Shown: positions 172 through 7,409 of the stretch, piece by piece
Numbering within the stretch: the stretch's first letter is position 1
How the letters are laid out: each line of letters begins with the position of its first letter
Origin: Bdellovibrio sp.
GTDB taxonomy: Bacteria; Myxococcota; SpSt-1050
Assembly: GCA_020725805.1 (NCBI GenBank)
Contig: DYEF01000067.1
Location: 1 to 7,414 of the forward strand
Direction of reading: 5' to 3'
DNA: 7,414 nt
Made by a program: the position numbers and the translations under genes
Notes under the pieces: generated by a model
What the model was told of the DNA's origin: nothing
Seen by the model: the letters and a program-made list of their open reading frames with translations, nothing else
Database searches by the model: none

Positions 172-2895
172 ATGAGATTTTTGCTTTTAGGTCTCTTTCT
201 TATTTCCTGTGCAGGCATAATCGGGAATGAGTCCATAAATAAACCGGCTGCAGATTCAAGACAGAAAGACCTGATGTCTGTACCAAACAAAGAGGAGAAG
301 AAGATTATGAAGGGAAATGATAATGTATCTCTTTCTTCAATCAAGGGCTTTACTCTTGACAACGGCCTCCAGCTTATTGTCGAGGAAGACCATAGTGCAC
401 CTGTGGTTGCTATACAGGCGTGGGTATCTGTAGGGTCGGCTGATGAAACTGATGATATCGCAGGAGTGGCTCATCTTCATGAACATATGTTGTTTAAGGG
501 GACATCAAAGCGGGGTGTGGGTGAGATTGCAAAGATAATCGAGGAGAACGGAGGAGATATAAATGCGTGGACTTCATTCGATGATACTGTCTATCATATA
601 GTAATGCCGTCCGAAAAATATGAAATGGGGCTTGATATTATTGCCGATGTCATTATGAATTCAGCATTCGACCCCAAGGAACTTGCGAAGGAGAAAGAGG
701 TTGTGCTGGAGGAGATCAGACAGAACAGGGATATTCCGCAACGCAGACTTATCGATGAACTCTTTTCACTGAGTTATGAGATACATCCGTATAAAAGACC
801 TGTTATCGGTTATGCCGATTCAGTAAGAAAGATAACCAGACAGAAGATATATGAATTCTATAAGAAGTTCTATGTGCCGCAGAATATTGTCCTTGTCGTT
901 GCAGGGGATGTCTCTGCTGCCAGTATATATTCACGTGTTCAGAATCTCTTTTCGGCCTTTAAGGGGACAAAACCTGTCTCTGAGAGAAGAGCGGAACCAC
1001 AGCAAAACGTTCCCAGAATAAAGATTGTAAAGGACAAATTTATCGAGGCTCAGATAGGTATTGCTTTCCATATCTCCAGTATATCTGAGGAAGATACGGT
1101 CGTTCTGGACCTGCTCTCGGTCCTTTTAGGCGGTTCCCAGTCTGCAAAACTCAGGGAGACTCTGGTTGTGGATAAGACACTTGCAACAGATATATTTGCC
1201 TATTCCTATACACCAAAGGACAAGGGTCTGTTTATAATTGGTGCGGGGCTTCCGTTTTCCAATATTCCGGATGCCTTCAGGGAGATTTTCGAGATTATTC
1301 TTAAGTATAAATTCGAAAAATTCTCATCATCGGAAGTAAATAAGGCGATTATTCAGGTAGAAAGCGATGATATCTTTTCTCTTACGACTATGCAGGGCAG
1401 GGCCAGAAAACTGGGATTTTACCAGATGATGACGGGTGATTATGATTACGGGAGCAAGTATCTTAACCGTCTGAGAAGTATTACGCCTGATGAGATAGTA
1501 AAGGTGGCTAAGAAGTATTTTACAAGGGAGAATATGTCTGTGGTTCTGCTCCTCCCCGATACAGTTTCTGAGCAGATCCTCTCCGAAGAGCAGATACTCA
1601 ATATGTTTTCAAAGACTGAAGATTTTTATCGCAGGAGAGCAGAGGAGAAGGACCCGGGCAGACAGATTTACAAGAAGGTTTTGAAAAACGGGATGACTTT
1701 GATAATGGAGAAGAATCACAGACTTCCCGTCGTCTCCCTGAGGGCGGTCAGTCTGGGCGGGGTCAGATATGAGAATGAGAAGAATGCCGGCATAAGCAAC
1801 TTTGTGGCGAGGATGCTCACAAGGGGCAATAGTTCGATGAATACATTTCAGATAATGAGAGTTATTGATAATATAGGAGGGTCAATAAGCGGATACTCCG
1901 GCAAAAATTCACTTGGTCTCAGGGCCGAGTTTCTGAGCAAATATCAGGATACGGGTTTCAAGATATTTCTGGACTGTCTGTTCAAATCAGAGTTCAGCGA
2001 AGAGCAGATGGAAAAGGAGAGAAGGCTCATTCTTGAAGATATAAAGAACCGTGAGGATGACCTGGCCTTTCAGGCTGTACAGCTCTTCCTGAACACATTA
2101 TATACAACACATCCTTACAGATATGATATTCTGGGTAATGAGAGCAGTATTTCAAAACTCACAAGAAATGATTTGCTGAATTTTTACCGTAAAATCATTG
2201 TCCCAAAAAATGTCGTTCTGGCTGTTGTAGGAGATATAGAGCCTTCTCTTGTGGAGCAGATGGTCGAGGAATATATTCAGGATATTCCTGATAAGGAGTT
2301 CATACCGCTGAAGCTCGAGTCTGAGAAGATTCCAACAGAGGTCAGAAAACAGATTATCTACAAGGAGAAGGAGCAGGCACATATTGTGATAGGTTTTTTG
2401 GGGACAACATTATATGACAAGGACCGTTATGTACTCGAACTGCTCTCCGTAATTCTCGGCGGACAGAGTGGCAGGTTCTTTGTTGACCTCAGAGACAAGA
2501 AATCGCTTGCATATACTGTCTCTGCATTCAATGTAGAAGGCATGGAAAGAGGGTATTTTGCTATTTATCTCTCCTGTGCACATCACAAGGTAAAAATTTC
2601 GGAAGAGGCAATATTCGAGGAGATATCTAAACTAAGAAGCGGAGGCGTTCTCGAAGAGGAGCTTGAAAAGGCAAAGAATTATCTCATAGGGATTCACGCA
2701 ATCGAGATGCAGGAATACTCTCTGAGGGCACATCTGTATTCACTCGATGAACTGTACGGACTCGGGTATGATTTTCATAATAAGTATGCAGACCTGATAA
2801 GATCCGTAACCATAAGTGATGTTAAAAATATCATTAATAAATATTTTACCCCTGAAAACGCTGTGGTTGCTGTAATAAGGTCTCAGGTCAGGTAG
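172..2895 (+). CDS. M16 family zinc metallopeptidase, two fused M16 halves, predicted lipoprotein
   Basis: This 907-residue protein is a single-chain M16 (pitrilysin/processing-peptidase type) protease. It starts with a lipoprotein signal, MRFLLLGLFLISC, with lipobox LISC and Cys13 as the lipidated residue. Ala at +2 would fit outer-membrane sorting by the E. coli rule. A charged linker runs to about residue 55. The first half carries the inverse zinc motif HLHEH at 101-105, with Glu181 (in VVLEEI) as likely third ligand 76 residues later. Its M16_C-like part begins near FYVPQNIVLVVAGD (233 on). The second half starts near 504 (LKNGMTLIME). The zinc-motif position there reads NFVAR (543-547), so it is catalytically dead, but it has the substrate-binding Arg774 and Tyr781 pair (LR...LAY). 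The equivalent first-half positions are Val332 and Thr339. The active half plus Arg/Tyr half is thus the M16B subunit pair joined in one chain. It probably degrades peptides or misfolded proteins in the envelope; the substrate is unknown. It overlaps the convergent gene by 8 bp. Confidence 0.95.
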   Translation: MRFLLLGLFLISCAGIIGNESINKPAADSRQKDLMSVPNKEEKKIMKGNDNVSLSSIKGFTLDNGLQLIVEEDHSAPVVAIQAWVSVGSADETDDIAGVAHLHEHMLFKGTSKRGVGEIAKIIEENGGDINAWTSFDDTVYHIVMPSEKYEMGLDIIADVIMNSAFDPKELAKEKEVVLEEIRQNRDIPQRRLIDELFSLSYEIHPYKRPVIGYADSVRKITRQKIYEFYKKFYVPQNIVLVVAGDVSAASIYSRVQNLFSAFKGTKPVSERRAEPQQNVPRIKIVKDKFIEAQIGIAFHISSISEEDTVVLDLLSVLLGGSQSAKLRETLVVDKTLATDIFAYSYTPKDKGLFIIGAGLPFSNIPDAFREIFEIILKYKFEKFSSSEVNKAIIQVESDDIFSLTTMQGRARKLGFYQMMTGDYDYGSKYLNRLRSITPDEIVKVAKKYFTRENMSVVLLLPDTVSEQILSEEQILNMFSKTEDFYRRRAEEKDPGRQIYKKVLKNGMTLIMEKNHRLPVVSLRAVSLGGVRYENEKNAGISNFVARMLTRGNSSMNTFQIMRVIDNIGGSISGYSGKNSLGLRAEFLSKYQDTGFKIFLDCLFKSEFSEEQMEKERRLILEDIKNREDDLAFQAVQLFLNTLYTTHPYRYDILGNESSISKLTRNDLLNFYRKIIVPKNVVLAVVGDIEPSLVEQMVEEYIQDIPDKEFIPLKLESEKIPTEVRKQIIYKEKEQAHIVIGFLGTTLYDKDRYVLELLSVILGGQSGRFFVDLRDKKSLAYTVSAFNVEGMERGYFAIYLSCAHHKVKISEEAIFEEISKLRSGGVLEEELEKAKNYLIGIHAIEMQEYSLRAHLYSLDELYGLGYDFHNKYADLIRSVTISDVKNIINKYFTPENAVVAVIRSQVR

Positions 2896-3490
2896 AGAGT
2901 AATGCTGAAAGGGGAAGTTCCTGCTTCACATCCTGCAGGATAAGCCTGTTGCCGCTTGTTTTCCCTCTCAGAAAGAGTATTGCAGACGACTCTGTCCTGA
3001 AGGAATATTCCATACCCGTAATGTCGCCTTGCATATCGAAGTATTTCATAAATGTATATCTTGCCAGCCTTTCAAGTACCTCAGGTTTTATATTCATTGT
3101 AAAATTCTTCTCCTGCGGTGTGTATAAAACAAGCGGAAACTCTGACCTGCTCAGCTTGAGAGTTAGTTCTGTTTCAAGGTCGCCGAAATAGAGAGGGTCT
3201 ATCATTGAAAAGGCCCTTACGGCAATTACCGGACTGTTTCCGCATTTTATTGATACCTCTTTCTGTCTGTCGGTTGCAAAATGCAGATATTCGATACCGG
3301 AATGCATGATAAGAAACGGCAGGAGTATGTTGTATTCAGAATCATTTTTGGGAATAAAGGACTCAATTTTATAAAAATTCTTCTCTTTCAGGATATAGAG
3401 TGTTTTGCAGTATGAACACAGAAAAAGATATTCATCCTTTGCTCCGCTGAGTGTATTTCTGCATTCCTTGCATCTGAGCGATATAATCAC
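2888..3490 (-). CDS. zinc-ribbon protein without membrane segment, last gene of the operon
   Basis: This 200-residue protein begins with a zinc ribbon: CKEC (Cys7, Cys10) and CSYC (Cys25, Cys28). The rest is mixed alpha/beta with no obvious membrane span or signal peptide, so it is likely cytoplasmic. It follows the layout of the two zinc-ribbon genes upstream: a hydrophobic strand ending in Pro-Phe (ILLPF, 55-59), then a segment like their PAI/PAV region (SPVIAVRAFSMIDPL, 86-100), then a late hydrophobic strand (AILFL, 170-174). I infer a divergent paralogue that lost the membrane anchor; similarity is weaker than between the other two. Its GTG start is set by AGGAG five bases upstream, which overlaps the previous stop codon. 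It ends inside the 3' end of the M16 gene on the other strand (8-bp overlap). Function unknown; the ribbon could bind nucleic acid or a protein partner. Confidence 0.85.
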   Translation of the reverse strand: MIISLRCKECRNTLSGAKDEYLFLCSYCKTLYILKEKNFYKIESFIPKNDSEYNILLPFLIMHSGIEYLHFATDRQKEVSIKCGNSPVIAVRAFSMIDPLYFGDLETELTLKLSRSEFPLVLYTPQEKNFTMNIKPEVLERLARYTFMKYFDMQGDITGMEYSFRTESSAILFLRGKTSGNRLILQDVKQELPLSALLST

Positions 3491-3495
3491 TGTTG

Positions 3496-3501
3496 CTCCT
3501 A
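3496..3501 (-). promoter_or_regulatory. Shine-Dalgarno site TAGGAG overlapping the upstream stop codon
   Basis: On the minus strand TAGGAG covers 3501-3496. Its first three bases are the TAG stop of the 349-residue gene, and five bases separate it from the GTG start at 3490-3488. This strong site fixes the non-ATG start of the 200-residue gene and suggests that ribosomes finishing the upstream gene re-initiate here. Confidence 0.7.
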
Positions 3502-4548
3502 AAGGTTTTTCTTCCGGTAACTGATTATTGAATCTTCGATTATCTTAAAAACCGGCCTGAGGATTTTTTCGATGAAAGTCGTCTCCGGAATATTGAGTTT
3601 GTTGATTTCCACCTTCTCCCTTTCTATAACGATCTCGCCGTAGTTTCTGTAGAATATCCACGCCATATAAATAAACGTAATCAGAAGAAATACAAAAGTC
3701 CCGAAGACGGGAAGTGTATATACAGGCATCAGGATTATTCCTCCCACAAAGCTTGTGAGCAGAAACTTTCCGATACCGCCTGTGAATAGGGCGGTAAAGA
3801 ATGCCGCAGCGGCCATCGGGATAAAGCGGTTATTCTCTGCCTCAGGCGCTATACCGTATATTATACTGCCGCTGACAGCGTCAATTGAATAGTGGTATAT
3901 GTTTTTTCTGTATTTGAGGACAACCCTTATGACAGGGTAATATACAATAATGCAGTTTTCCGTGATTATTTCTGTCTTTATGTTCTCATTGTGTGTCATA
4001 AAATGCAGATTGATTTCATCTTTGGGAACAGATGAAATGTCCGGCCTGAGCATTATGCCTTCGCCTTCTGATTTTTCTCCCGCCGGTCTCAGCCTGTTTC
4101 TGTTATTGAGTATATGGTCGGTCCCGATATTCATTGTCCCCCAGCCGGAGAGCTTTACAGCGGGGATAAGTGTCTTGAATGCAGATTTTATTACCCTTGT
4201 GTCTTCTGTCTTTTCCTGTGTAAGACGGTCTTTTTCTTCTATAATATGTTCGCCGCATCTGAATCCGGTAGTGTAAATGAAAGGTATATAATAAAGAGTT
4301 CTTGATACTATCCGTGATTTCGGGATAAAATCACCGGCGATCAGGTAATGTCTCAGTTTCGACAGAAGTATGGAAGTCGTATCTTTTGTGCCAAAGCTTG
4401 GTTCCATAATGTATGACGGCAGGTGATTTTCGATTTTTATCAGAACCGGTGTCTGGCAGTGAGAGCAACTGGTTATTTCGTCCGTATTACTCATCTTTAT
4501 GGCAGCCCCGCACTCAGGACATTTTGCTGTTTTGGTCCTCAGATACAT
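3499..4548 (-). CDS. zinc-ribbon membrane protein, third gene of the operon
   Basis: This 349-residue protein has an N-terminal zinc ribbon, CPEC (Cys10, Cys13) and CSHC (Cys28, Cys31). A soluble domain follows (about 40-235), then a hydrophobic region at about 242-300 that can hold two or three membrane spans, and a basic C-terminal tail ending RKKNL. The soluble domain has the landmarks YIMEP (46-50), YYIPF (86-90), LIPAV (127-131) and a late block IVYYPVIRVVLKY...YSIDAVSGSI (201-229). The same landmarks occur in order in the 247-residue gene upstream, so the two are paralogues. From memory, this layout (zinc ribbon, xYxPFW-like strand, YPLxxVxYxYxGxxYxxxIDGxTG block) is seen in poorly characterised bacterial zinc-ribbon membrane proteins, and the final block recalls B. 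subtilis YdjG. I cannot verify that here. No signal peptide is visible, so the ribbon is probably cytoplasmic. It overlaps the upstream gene by 35 bp. SD GAGG lies six bases before the ATG. Confidence 0.9.
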   Translation of the reverse strand: MYLRTKTAKCPECGAAIKMSNTDEITSCSHCQTPVLIKIENHLPSYIMEPSFGTKDTTSILLSKLRHYLIAGDFIPKSRIVSRTLYYIPFIYTTGFRCGEHIIEEKDRLTQEKTEDTRVIKSAFKTLIPAVKLSGWGTMNIGTDHILNNRNRLRPAGEKSEGEGIMLRPDISSVPKDEINLHFMTHNENIKTEIITENCIIVYYPVIRVVLKYRKNIYHYSIDAVSGSIIYGIAPEAENNRFIPMAAAAFFTALFTGGIGKFLLTSFVGGIILMPVYTLPVFGTFVFLLITFIYMAWIFYRNYGEIVIEREKVEINKLNIPETTFIEKILRPVFKIIEDSIISYRKKNL

Positions 4549-5257
4549 AAATATCCTCGATAAGCCTGAAAATTGACGGGAAAAAGAACCATATAACCAA
4601 AAGGGTTGATATGGCCAGAATGAAACTCACGAGAAATGATTCGAAGGCAAAAAATTCTATGAAGAGCAGAAATGCCGTTATGATAAAGACATAGATGTAT
4701 GCCTTTTCGCGGACGGTATCCCTCTGAACAGGCAGTATGTCAGCATATATTTCCTCAGAGAATCCGTCGATAAGAAGCCTGTATTCCTGACCCAGATATT
4801 TGTATGTTACGAAGATCAGGGGGTAATAGATGAGGTTTACTTTCCTGTCCTTGATTTCATCGGGTTCTATCTCCGGCTCCAGAATCCTGTAATCGCCGGT
4901 CTTTGCTTCATCGTAGAAGACAAGCTCTCCGCCTTTGAATCTGAGGCCGGAAATTAGATTGAAATTCGAATCTTTTATTGCCGGTATCAGCTGATTCTGG
5001 TTTTCTTCTCTGTAAAAAGGAAATAGTACTGCATCTTTTTCGGCAATGTGTATTTCGCCCGTATACCCCTTCTTGAGAAAGAAGTTTTTGATAATCAGCT
5101 CGGCCTTCTGAGAGTCTGCAACCGGTCTGAGGATATATCTCAGGCCCGAACTCAGCGGGAAGATAAATACCGAGGCCCTGCAGTATTCGCAGGTGATAAA
5201 TACATCATCAGTTTCTGTCCTGATTTCTCCGCCGCAATGGGAACATCTTGCAAGCAT
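4514..5257 (-). CDS. zinc-ribbon membrane protein, second gene of the operon
   Basis: This 247-residue protein starts with a zinc ribbon, CSHC (Cys5, Cys8) and CEYC (Cys23, Cys26). A soluble domain runs from about 35 to 178, followed by two likely membrane spans (about 185-203 and 207-226) and a short hydrophilic tail. Shared landmarks with the next gene are YILRP (41-45), VLFPF (77-81), LIPAI (90-94) and the block LIYYPLIFVTYKY...LLIDGFSEEI (142-170). It is the shorter of the two membrane-anchored paralogues. Its ATG overlaps the stop of the SpoIID-domain gene in TGATG. The SD candidate AAAAGG lies seven bases upstream, inside that gene. Both features argue for coupled translation with the glycan hydrolase. 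The C-terminal codons overlap the start of the next gene by 35 bp. Function unknown; a membrane-linked scaffold or sensor with a cytoplasmic zinc ribbon would fit, by inference only. Confidence 0.9.
   Translation of the reverse strand: MLARCSHCGGEIRTETDDVFITCEYCRASVFIFPLSSGLRYILRPVADSQKAELIIKNFFLKKGYTGEIHIAEKDAVLFPFYREENQNQLIPAIKDSNFNLISGLRFKGGELVFYDEAKTGDYRILEPEIEPDEIKDRKVNLIYYPLIFVTYKYLGQEYRLLIDGFSEEIYADILPVQRDTVREKAYIYVFIITAFLLFIEFFAFESFLVSFILAISTLLVIWFFFPSIFRLIEDIYVSEDQNSKMS
4555..4558 (-). promoter_or_regulatory. Shine-Dalgarno site GAGG for the 349-residue gene
   Basis: On the minus strand GAGG (4558-4555) lies six bases before the ATG at 4548-4546 and inside the upstream coding region. 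It supports the start that creates the 35-bp overlap. Any later start would delete part of the first CxxC of the zinc ribbon. Confidence 0.6.
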
Positions 5258-6876
5258 CAGTATACCTTTTCAATTCTGACATTTTTATAATAATGAAGCA
5301 GAATATCCGGGAAGGATTTTCCTTTTTCCGCCATACCAATCGCCCCGGTCTGACACATCCCGACTCCGTGTCCCCAGCCACCGCCCGTGAATATCAGGCT
5401 TATAAGCTTTCCTTCCTGATTCTTCTTCTTCTCGATAACCATAAGACCGCTCTTCAGACCTCCGAACAACTGTCTGATATTATACTCCGTATCGATATAA
5501 TATTTCTTGTCACCGGATATTATAGATATACCTTTTATCCTTCCGGATTTTCCTCTTCCCTCTATGCTTATATCACTAATGCCGTCGATATCAAATCTTT
5601 TTTTGACCAGTCTCAGGAGTTCTTCGTAATAAATCTCGGTCTTCCATCTGTATGCCTTCTTGTTGTTAAATGTGGATACGGCGCAGTAGCTCTCGTCAGC
5701 AGTGTACAGAAATTCCTCAATATTATCATCTGAAATTCCATTAAGGTATTTTTTGAAAAAATCACTGCTTTCGTCTGCATCGGGTGATGGCACCAGATAG
5801 GGTTCCGGGTGTTCGTTCCAGACGATGTTGTTGTCTTCGCTAAAGCCTCCGCAATTACTCGAATATACTGCCCTAACAAATCTCTTCTCAAACAGCATTA
5901 CCTGCCCGTATGTATCAATTATTGCCCTGTCTGTCTGTGGTGTATAACTGTTTGTGCCGTTGTATACCTGACAGTGTTGTGTGGCACAGAGAAGATATGG
6001 TGTTGCAGGGTGACGGTGTCCGATAGCTGATAATATCTCTGTTCTTGCCGCAACGGCCTGTGCCCTGAGTGCCTCCGGCGGGGCTGAGGCATATATTTCG
6101 GAAGGGAGAATCCCCCTCAAAAGCTCCTCGAGGTCAACTCTGTTTACTGCCGCAAGACTGCCATCTGCCTCGAACGTAAAATAAAAATCTCCGTTGAACA
6201 GACCGTATGTCGATTTTTTTGTCTCGTCTGAGAGTGAAAGCCTCTCCTTCTCCTGTCTGACCCATACTATGTTTTTGACCTCAACTACCTTGTTATTATC
6301 CCTTATATTGATTTTCAGCCTGCCGGAGGGGTGTTTTCTGAGGACAGGGAGCAGAAATGTTCTTATTCTGTGCTTTTCGAATATTTCGGATATCAGAGGG
6401 TCGGCCTCTTCTTTCTTTGCAAATGTGGCTATCGAAATATAATACTGCCTGTTGTCGTATACCTTTCCCTTGAGTCCGAATACAGAGCCCACAATAATAT
6501 TTTCTGTCTTAAAACCCAGTACTCTGAGATTCTCCTCGGATTTTGCAAGTGTCTCCTTGTCATTGAAGTTTACTCTGTCTGCTATGAGTTTGTAGGCAAC
6601 TTCACCCTTTGTGCAATCTGTCTTTTCAACAACGATATCTCTGGCTTTAATAGTCCTGATTTTGCCGTTCTCCTTATATTCGACTCTGAAATTACCCTTA
6701 GACGAGATGTTATATGAATTGTGCTGGTTTGAAATAAGAATTGATGTTACAGGGATATTCCTGCTGCTGAATCTGATTGCGTGAAAGTAGTGTGTGGCAA
6801 TCTCGAAATCGAGTTCGTCGGCATAGAGTTCATTCAACAGAGATAAAATAAATGTTATAAGCAGTATCTTTCTCAT
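5257..6876 (-). CDS. secreted SpoIID/LytB-domain peptidoglycan hydrolase with SPOR-like segment
   Basis: This 539-residue protein has a Sec signal peptide (MRKILLITFILSLLNELYA, likely cut after Ala19). Residues 20-135 are not recognised. Residues 138-182 (VYDNRQYYISIATFAKKEEA onward) resemble a SPOR domain, the fold that binds peptide-free glycan. The SpoIID domain covers about 235-539. Its signature is VDLEELLRGILPSEI (247-261), with Glu260 in the place of the catalytic Glu of SpoIID, then PEALRAQAVAARTE (267-280), a Cys/His segment (Cys297, His301, Cys302), SSNCGG (339-344) and the C-terminal GGGWGHGVGMCQTGAIGMA (498-516). SpoIID proteins are lytic transglycosylases that cut glycan strands already stripped of stem peptides. 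In sporulating Firmicutes this serves engulfment, but the domain is also common in non-sporulating diderms, where it is placed in cell separation or wall turnover. It is the first gene of the four-gene operon. No clear Shine-Dalgarno site precedes the ATG. Confidence 0.93.
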   Translation of the reverse strand: MRKILLITFILSLLNELYADELDFEIATHYFHAIRFSSRNIPVTSILISNQHNSYNISSKGNFRVEYKENGKIRTIKARDIVVEKTDCTKGEVAYKLIADRVNFNDKETLAKSEENLRVLGFKTENIIVGSVFGLKGKVYDNRQYYISIATFAKKEEADPLISEIFEKHRIRTFLLPVLRKHPSGRLKINIRDNNKVVEVKNIVWVRQEKERLSLSDETKKSTYGLFNGDFYFTFEADGSLAAVNRVDLEELLRGILPSEIYASAPPEALRAQAVAARTEILSAIGHRHPATPYLLCATQHCQVYNGTNSYTPQTDRAIIDTYGQVMLFEKRFVRAVYSSNCGGFSEDNNIVWNEHPEPYLVPSPDADESSDFFKKYLNGISDDNIEEFLYTADESYCAVSTFNNKKAYRWKTEIYYEELLRLVKKRFDIDGISDISIEGRGKSGRIKGISIISGDKKYYIDTEYNIRQLFGGLKSGLMVIEKKKNQEGKLISLIFTGGGWGHGVGMCQTGAIGMAEKGKSFPDILLHYYKNVRIEKVY

Positions 6877-7193: not shown

Positions 7194-7230
7194 AGTTCGC
7201 AGTTCACGGAAGGATGTCCACAGACCACAG
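7194..7230. repeat. degenerate heptamer tandem repeats
   Basis: AGTTCGC (7194-7200) is followed directly by AGTTCAC (7201-7207). Nine bases later TCCACAG (7217-7223) is followed by ACCACAG (7224-7230). Each pair matches in six of seven bases. The two pairs are out of heptamer phase with each other, so this is probably a decayed short-repeat tract. Confidence 0.5.
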
Positions 7231-7247
7231 TTTGGTTAGAGATAAAG

Positions 7248-7271
7248 CGCTGAAGAGCTGAAGTGCTGAAG
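7248..7271. repeat. three 8-bp tandem units NGCTGAAG
   Basis: CGCTGAAG (7248-7255), AGCTGAAG (7256-7263) and TGCTGAAG (7264-7271) are consecutive and differ only in the first base. The tract ends 16 bp before the first palindromic element. It is too short to be a protein-coding repeat in this context. Confidence 0.6.
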
Positions 7272-7287
7272 GCGATAGAGTTATTAA

Positions 7288-7320
7288 GGTGGCTGAGTAG
7301 CGAAGCGTATCGAAGCCACC
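7288..7320 (+). repeat. palindromic repeat element 1 (REP/BIME-like)
   Basis: The element reads, in blocks: GGTGGC, TGAGTA, GCGAAGC, GTATCGAA, GCCACC. The outer arms GGTGGC (7288-7293) and GCCACC (7315-7320) are exact reverse complements. The middle GCGAAGC can fold as a GC/GC stem with loop GAA; that heptamer is known as an unusually stable DNA mini-hairpin. The two conserved blocks between the stems are identical in elements 2 and 3. Confidence 0.85.
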
Positions 7321-7329
7321 ACTAAAGTC

Positions 7330-7364
7330 GGACATTTCGATACGGCTTTACCTACTCAATGTCC
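7330..7364 (-). repeat. palindromic repeat element 2, opposite orientation
   Basis: On the minus strand the blocks are GGACAT, TGAGTA, GGTAAAGCC, GTATCGAA, ATGTCC. The arms GGACAT/ATGTCC are perfectly complementary yet differ from those of element 1. The inner block can pair GGT with GCC (one G-T pair) around loop AAA. It lies 9 bp after element 1 and is inverted relative to it. Confidence 0.85.
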
Positions 7365-7376
7365 TTTTAATACTAA

Positions 7377-7409
7377 GGTCGCTGAGTAACAGAGTGTATC
7401 GAAGCGATG
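7377..7409 (+). repeat. palindromic repeat element 3
   Basis: The blocks are GGTCGC, TGAGTA, ACAGAGT, GTATCGAA, GCGATG. The inner four pairs of the arms (TCGC/GCGA) are perfect, the next is a G-T pair and the outermost is a mismatch. The inner block pairs AC with GT around loop AGA. The element begins 12 bp after element 2, in the orientation of element 1, and ends five bases before the window edge, so the array may go on. Confidence 0.8.

Follow-up and report, generated by a model that had tools for sequence, protein, structure and literature searches.

Evidence for a widespread, previously undescribed GNA-looped variant of REP/BIME-like palindromic repeats

How most short palindromic repeats of bacteria spread is an open question, and it is an old question whether they act as DNA or as RNA. 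Both are raised by a locus at the end of the 7,414-nucleotide stretch of DNA analysed here (the window), where three hairpins lie within positions 7288-7409. Five bases follow this array before the window ends (7414), which places the contig break within a repeat. The hairpins are oriented + - +, and in each an outer arm is followed by TGAGTA, then a small inner hairpin, then GTATCGAA and lastly the complementary arm (Table 1). A sequence-only reading had claimed that three elements share the two core words exactly. They do, but only when the middle hairpin is read on the minus strand, an inversion that this reading had missed. It had also noted that the outer arms differ and still pair: pairing is perfect in hairpins A and B and partial in C, which has four Watson-Crick pairs, one G.T pair and one mismatch. 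The three-hairpin array is real, and far beyond chance.

Table 1. Features of the array and of its 5' side, in window coordinates
Feature	Position	Strand	Description	Source
Repeat module	7213..7230	+	GTCCACAG/ACCACAG; second repeat type around many copies	flanks
Degenerate tandem repeat	7245..7271	+	AAGAGCTG / GCTGAAG; just 5' of most array copies	Tandem Repeats Finder
Conserved 5' flank	7280..7287	+	TATTAA; precedes most A units of the genome	flanks of all copies
Hairpin A	7288..7320	+	GGTGGC (7288-7293), TGAGTA (7294-7299), inner GCGAAGC (C-GAA-G loop), GTATCGAA (7307-7314), GCCACC (7315-7320)	sequence; covariance-model match, 52.8 bits
Hairpin B	7330..7364	-	read 7364-7330: GGACAT, TGAGTA, inner GGTAAAGCC, GTATCGAA, ATGTCC	sequence; covariance-model match, 44.6 bits, minus strand
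Hairpin C	7377..7409	+	GGTCGC (7377-7382), TGAGTA, inner ACAGAGT, GTATCGAA (7396-7403), GCGATG (7404-7409); arms imperfect	sequence; covariance-model match, 46.2 bits

The array is one of many in its genome. A search of the 3.29 Mb with the 122-bp block gave 32 matches, and the core pattern with its spacer has 24 exact matches, against none for a reversed control. A covariance model built from 34 own-genome units recovered 79 hairpin units at E <= 0.1, with hairpin A as the top match; they are grouped at about 30 genomic places, a few standing solo. The sequence-only reading had proposed such a genome-wide search and would have given way to a lack of other copies or to copies with unpaired arms; further copies were found, and neither outcome occurred. 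All 28 array places examined are intergenic, with variable orientation relative to their neighbours, and several copies are at the ends of contigs, which is unsurprising in repeats that break assembly.

The commonest arrangement is a three-part A(+) B(-) C(+) unit with constant spacing, and orientation alternates throughout the own-genome arrays, so that both strands of an array offer canonical hairpins. Two types of middle unit exist: B1 (GGACAT...ATGTCC) and B2, which has a longer inner part (GTGAGCAAAGCGAGCA) and the arms GGGCGT/ACGCC. Longer mosaics also exist (for example A-B1-A-B2-C).

The arrays have a characteristic setting. Of 26 array copies, 19 have two or more GCTGAAG-like words in the 70 bp upstream, versus a background of 3%. 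In the window (7213-7271) and in the flanks of most copies, small intergenic islands of two degenerate repeats carry GCTGAAG words just 5' of the array and GTCCACAG/GTCGACAG words further out. A further repeat, TGTAGAGCTGAAGGCGAGAGGGATGAAGTTTTGATGGGAGAACTTT, lies downstream of hairpin C in several arrays (L002/L003/L044/L050), ending near gene starts or contig ends. Elsewhere in the window (2888-6876, minus strand), three adjacent genes of 200, 349 and 247 aa share direction and come after a SpoIID-domain gene; their short products are zinc-ribbon-like or unknown, and two have no Pfam match.

Outside this genome the distribution is patchy. The array is absent from 38 relatives, including one of the same genus, and the exact core is absent from the 194 other genomes of the phylum (195 with our own, the only positive one). 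An RpoB comparison did not settle the phylum. In a scan of genome contigs, at least 106 stretches carried the core, from about ten phyla among the matches listed; the taxa in that list are Chloroflexota, Bacteroidota, Chlorobi, Ignavibacteria, Spirochaetota, Zixibacteria, UBP14, Planctomycetota, Proteobacteria and Actinobacteria. The arms differ by lineage around the common core, and some of the listed matches are chance occurrences with unpaired arms. Absence from relatives together with presence in about ten phyla (among the matches listed) suggests that the core may have spread horizontally. Viral contigs hardly carry the core (just 9 stretches in 2.9 million), and we rejected a viral element. 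Plain tandem arrays of the palindrome, with periods of about 31 and 54 bp, were seen in L092 (4834-5053, Ignavibacteria) and L067 (1459-1590, Bacteroidetes); elsewhere the units alternate. In the same-genus genome (G001), which lacks the array, the left and right neighbours of two arrays (G000:C60 near 71.9 kb and C68 near 8.1 kb) fall on separate contigs, and neither locus showed an empty site. Arrays may be rearrangement points.

Palindromes with a TGAG...TCGAA core had been described, in the sequence-only reading, as dispersed in many bacterial genomes, with the longer version and its inner hairpin as a possible distinct subfamily. Such palindromes were found in many genomes, and the longer form, its inner hairpin bounded by TA and GTA, is indeed distinct. 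Exactly TA...GTA is present in 62 of 69 well-paired TGAG...TCGAA palindromes, a proportion biased by the loci having been fetched with the longer pattern. Our genome lacks the short form CTGAGC-NNN-GTCGAAG, which a search of 24 genomes found in 14, often with GNA loops; other genomes hold both forms. Short TGAG(C-GNA-G)TCGAA palindromes share the outer core and, in several genomes, the preference for GNA loops, but they lack the GTA/GTA junction and the inner stem. One Anaerolineales genome (G052, locus L117, SuakinDeep_MAG45_1) holds at least 68 short-form copies, mostly with CCA or TCC/TCT loops and several at contig ends; this abundance is a genome-specific expansion.

What do the copies keep? 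Among the 34 own units, 90.3% of cells are paired, versus 72.2% after shuffling and 18-44% when the structure is slid. The covariation score is 0.590 versus 0.256 for shuffles, with none of 500 shuffles reaching 0.590 and slid structures at or below 0.145; compensatory changes occur at arm positions 3-6 and in both inner pairs. The same holds for 131 cross-phylum units among the matches listed, where arm pair 3 is paired in 95 and arm pair 4 in 73 (43 and 39 in shuffles), inner pair 2 in 109 of 120 and inner pair 3 in 90 of 99 (51 and 42 in shuffles), and arm pairing falls from 486 to 128 when the partner is slid by one position; little can be read from arm pairs 1 and 2, which the search pattern largely dictates. 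Because arms and inner stem covary both within the genome and across phyla, it is clearly the fold, and not the sequence, that the copies retain, as the sequence-only reading had proposed.

Each unit moreover has one folding strand. Predicted stability favours the TGAGTA strand over its complement in 76 of 84 units when folded as DNA and in 80 of 84 when folded as RNA. Consistently, G.T mismatches exceed A.C mismatches, at about 60 versus 27 overall, 34 versus 18 in the cross-phylum arms (among the matches listed) and 12 versus 4 in the own arms.

The inner loops bear on whether that strand folds as DNA or as RNA. Among the matches listed, cross-phylum triloops with paired arms are C-GNA-G in 61 of 70 cases, where about 4 would be expected (GAA 38, GCA 13, GTA 9, GGA 1), and C-GNA-G is the majority loop in 28 of 44 genomes. 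GAA, GTA and GCA interchange inside single genomes. In the same list, 9 of 13 locus counts of four-base loops are GNNA, with just one GNRA; d(cGNNAg) is a stable DNA tetraloop. These loop and unit counts are raw and ignore shared ancestry, and the cross-phylum sample was chosen by pattern from the matches listed. The loops of our own genome are looser than the cross-phylum set and include TTTA, AGA and AAA besides GAA.

A d(GNA) triloop closed by C-G is a known stable DNA motif, with a Tm of 68.9 versus 48.9 °C for G-C closure, and the GNRA tetraloop is its RNA counterpart (PMC5815330). The inner part of hairpin A is identical to d(GCGAAGC), the classical DNA mini-hairpin of extraordinary stability (cited in PMC6895277). 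ViennaRNA energy tables make no difference between the polymers for GNA or GNNA loops, so the argument for DNA over RNA comes entirely from published loop preferences. The fold z-score of the array is stronger for RNA (-4.0) than for DNA (-2.4). Judging from the loops, single-stranded DNA is the likelier folded form; with the energy tables indecisive and the RNA z-score better, this conclusion stays moderate.

An RNA role, in which hairpins in 3' or 5' untranslated regions would end transcription, stabilise messages or bind protein, is the best of the alternatives, and we think it unlikely. It would fit that strong RNA fold, the excess of G.U-type pairs over A.C mismatches, the left-hand genes that read toward the array in 16 of 25 places (in element orientation), and the frequent proposal that REPs work as RNA (PMC3733652). 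Yet gene orientation is not fixed, as the other 9 left-hand genes of the 25 point away, and the window array lies 412 bp upstream of a SpoIID-like gene. The C-GNA-G triloops and non-GNRA tetraloops are not the stable loop types of RNA, and absence of the array from close relatives speaks against a housekeeping RNA. A known structured RNA was rejected, as no Rfam match covers 7288-7409 up to E = 5.

The reading that we prefer is that the array is a REP/BIME-like, non-autonomous repeat that acts as folded single-stranded DNA and is copied or moved in trans; we give it about an even chance of being right. The functional form would be a single-stranded DNA hairpin, most likely on the TGAGTA...GTATCGAA strand, in which an outer stem specific to the lineage leads through an irregular GA-GTA/GTA-TC(GAA) junction to an inner mini-hairpin with a DNA-type C-GNA-G loop. 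GTA opposite GTA in DNA can form sheared G.A pairs around a T.T step. Folding would take place when the DNA is single-stranded, on the lagging-strand template or during transfer or repair. A trans-acting enzyme that copies or moves the hairpin would recognise the junction and the loop, and not the arm sequence. Head-to-head and tail-to-tail pairing of alternating units would then give the + - + composites, which may recombine with one another.

The parallels with known palindromic families are close. Like GTAG REPs and BIMEs, these are imperfect palindromes of 20-40 nt with many intergenic copies, alternating clusters and strand-defined hairpins with an irregular stem, and the mosaics of A, B1/B2 and C hairpin types that alternate in orientation are what defines a BIME. 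Unlike them, they have a cross-phylum core with lineage-specific arms and a C-GNA-G inner mini-hairpin. REPs are tied to RAYT/TnpA-REP, which requires GTAG at the hairpin foot (PMC3733652, PMC6006769, PMC8266576). No GTAG (GT[AG]G) is present at the foot of the own-genome hairpins, which reads TATTAAGG / ACTAAGG; GTAG in these units is confined to the stem interior (TGAGTAG). CGTC-tagged REPs (Di Nocera 2013) are likewise palindromic, spread over several phyla and mostly arranged as inverted pairs, and no dedicated transposase has been found for them; they differ in having stems of 8-9 bp, simple loops of 4-5 nt, a CGTC terminus and CCA tails (PMC3733652), whereas the copies in our genome have a two-stem structure and neither a CGTC tag nor a CCA flank. 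REPINs also hold inverted hairpins as a fixed-spacing composite, but here the composite has three hairpins (+ - +) whose arms differ, the middle one being of either of two interchangeable types, and no associated RAYT was found.

These comparisons bear on a second alternative, that of an ordinary REP or REPIN whose palindromes are moved in trans by a same-cell RAYT (a Y1 transposase, TnpA-REP), the linked REPtron being lost or off the assembly. The genome does hold one IS200-like Y1 gene, truncated by a contig end, and the alternating irregular-stem hairpins do resemble BIMEs; E. coli TnpA-REP requires a stem bulge (PMC8266576). Against this stand the foot without GTAG, a motif crucial for TnpA-REP activity, and the Y1 genes themselves. 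They were found in 14 of 23 palindrome-bearing genomes and not in the other 9, which are incomplete MAGs, and no palindrome lies within about 1.5 kb of 31 Y1_Tnp loci from our own and the 14 palindrome-bearing genomes, contig ends permitting. We consider this alternative improbable and, with no GTAG foot and no RAYT linkage in the 31 loci, do not claim membership of the canonical GTAG REP/RAYT family.

Least likely of all, passive repeats without a dedicated enzyme, arising by slippage, template switching or gene conversion in repeat islands or as an insertion target of other elements, would suit the embedding of arrays among GCTGAAG and GTCCACAG repeats, the mosaics, and the plain tandem copies of L067 and L092, but slippage cannot jump between genomes, and a core and loop rule common to about ten phyla (among the matches listed), with a conserved TA/GTA junction, imply specific shape recognition.

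A literature search with the element's sequence strings returned primer noise or nothing, and a search for palindrome families in the same phyla returned the GTAG/CGTC paper as the sole relevant one. Our results support the array as a widespread, previously undescribed GNA-looped variant of REP/BIME-like repeats. A broader and more doubtful possibility is that the array belongs to a cross-phylum superfamily of single-stranded DNA hairpins (arm - TGAGTA - d(C-GNA-G) inner stem - GTATCGAA - arm'), moved by a non-RAYT trans-acting enzyme that would read the junction and mini-hairpin, and not the arms.

Sequence alone separates stable DNA loops (GNA, GNNA) from stable RNA loops (GNRA), and the loop rule is thus a direct handle on whether palindromic repeats act as DNA or RNA. 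RAYT, the one characterised family of movers, seemingly does not explain the GNA-looped palindromes, and their folded DNA, with its fixed core, offers a defined bait for finding the protein that recognises it.
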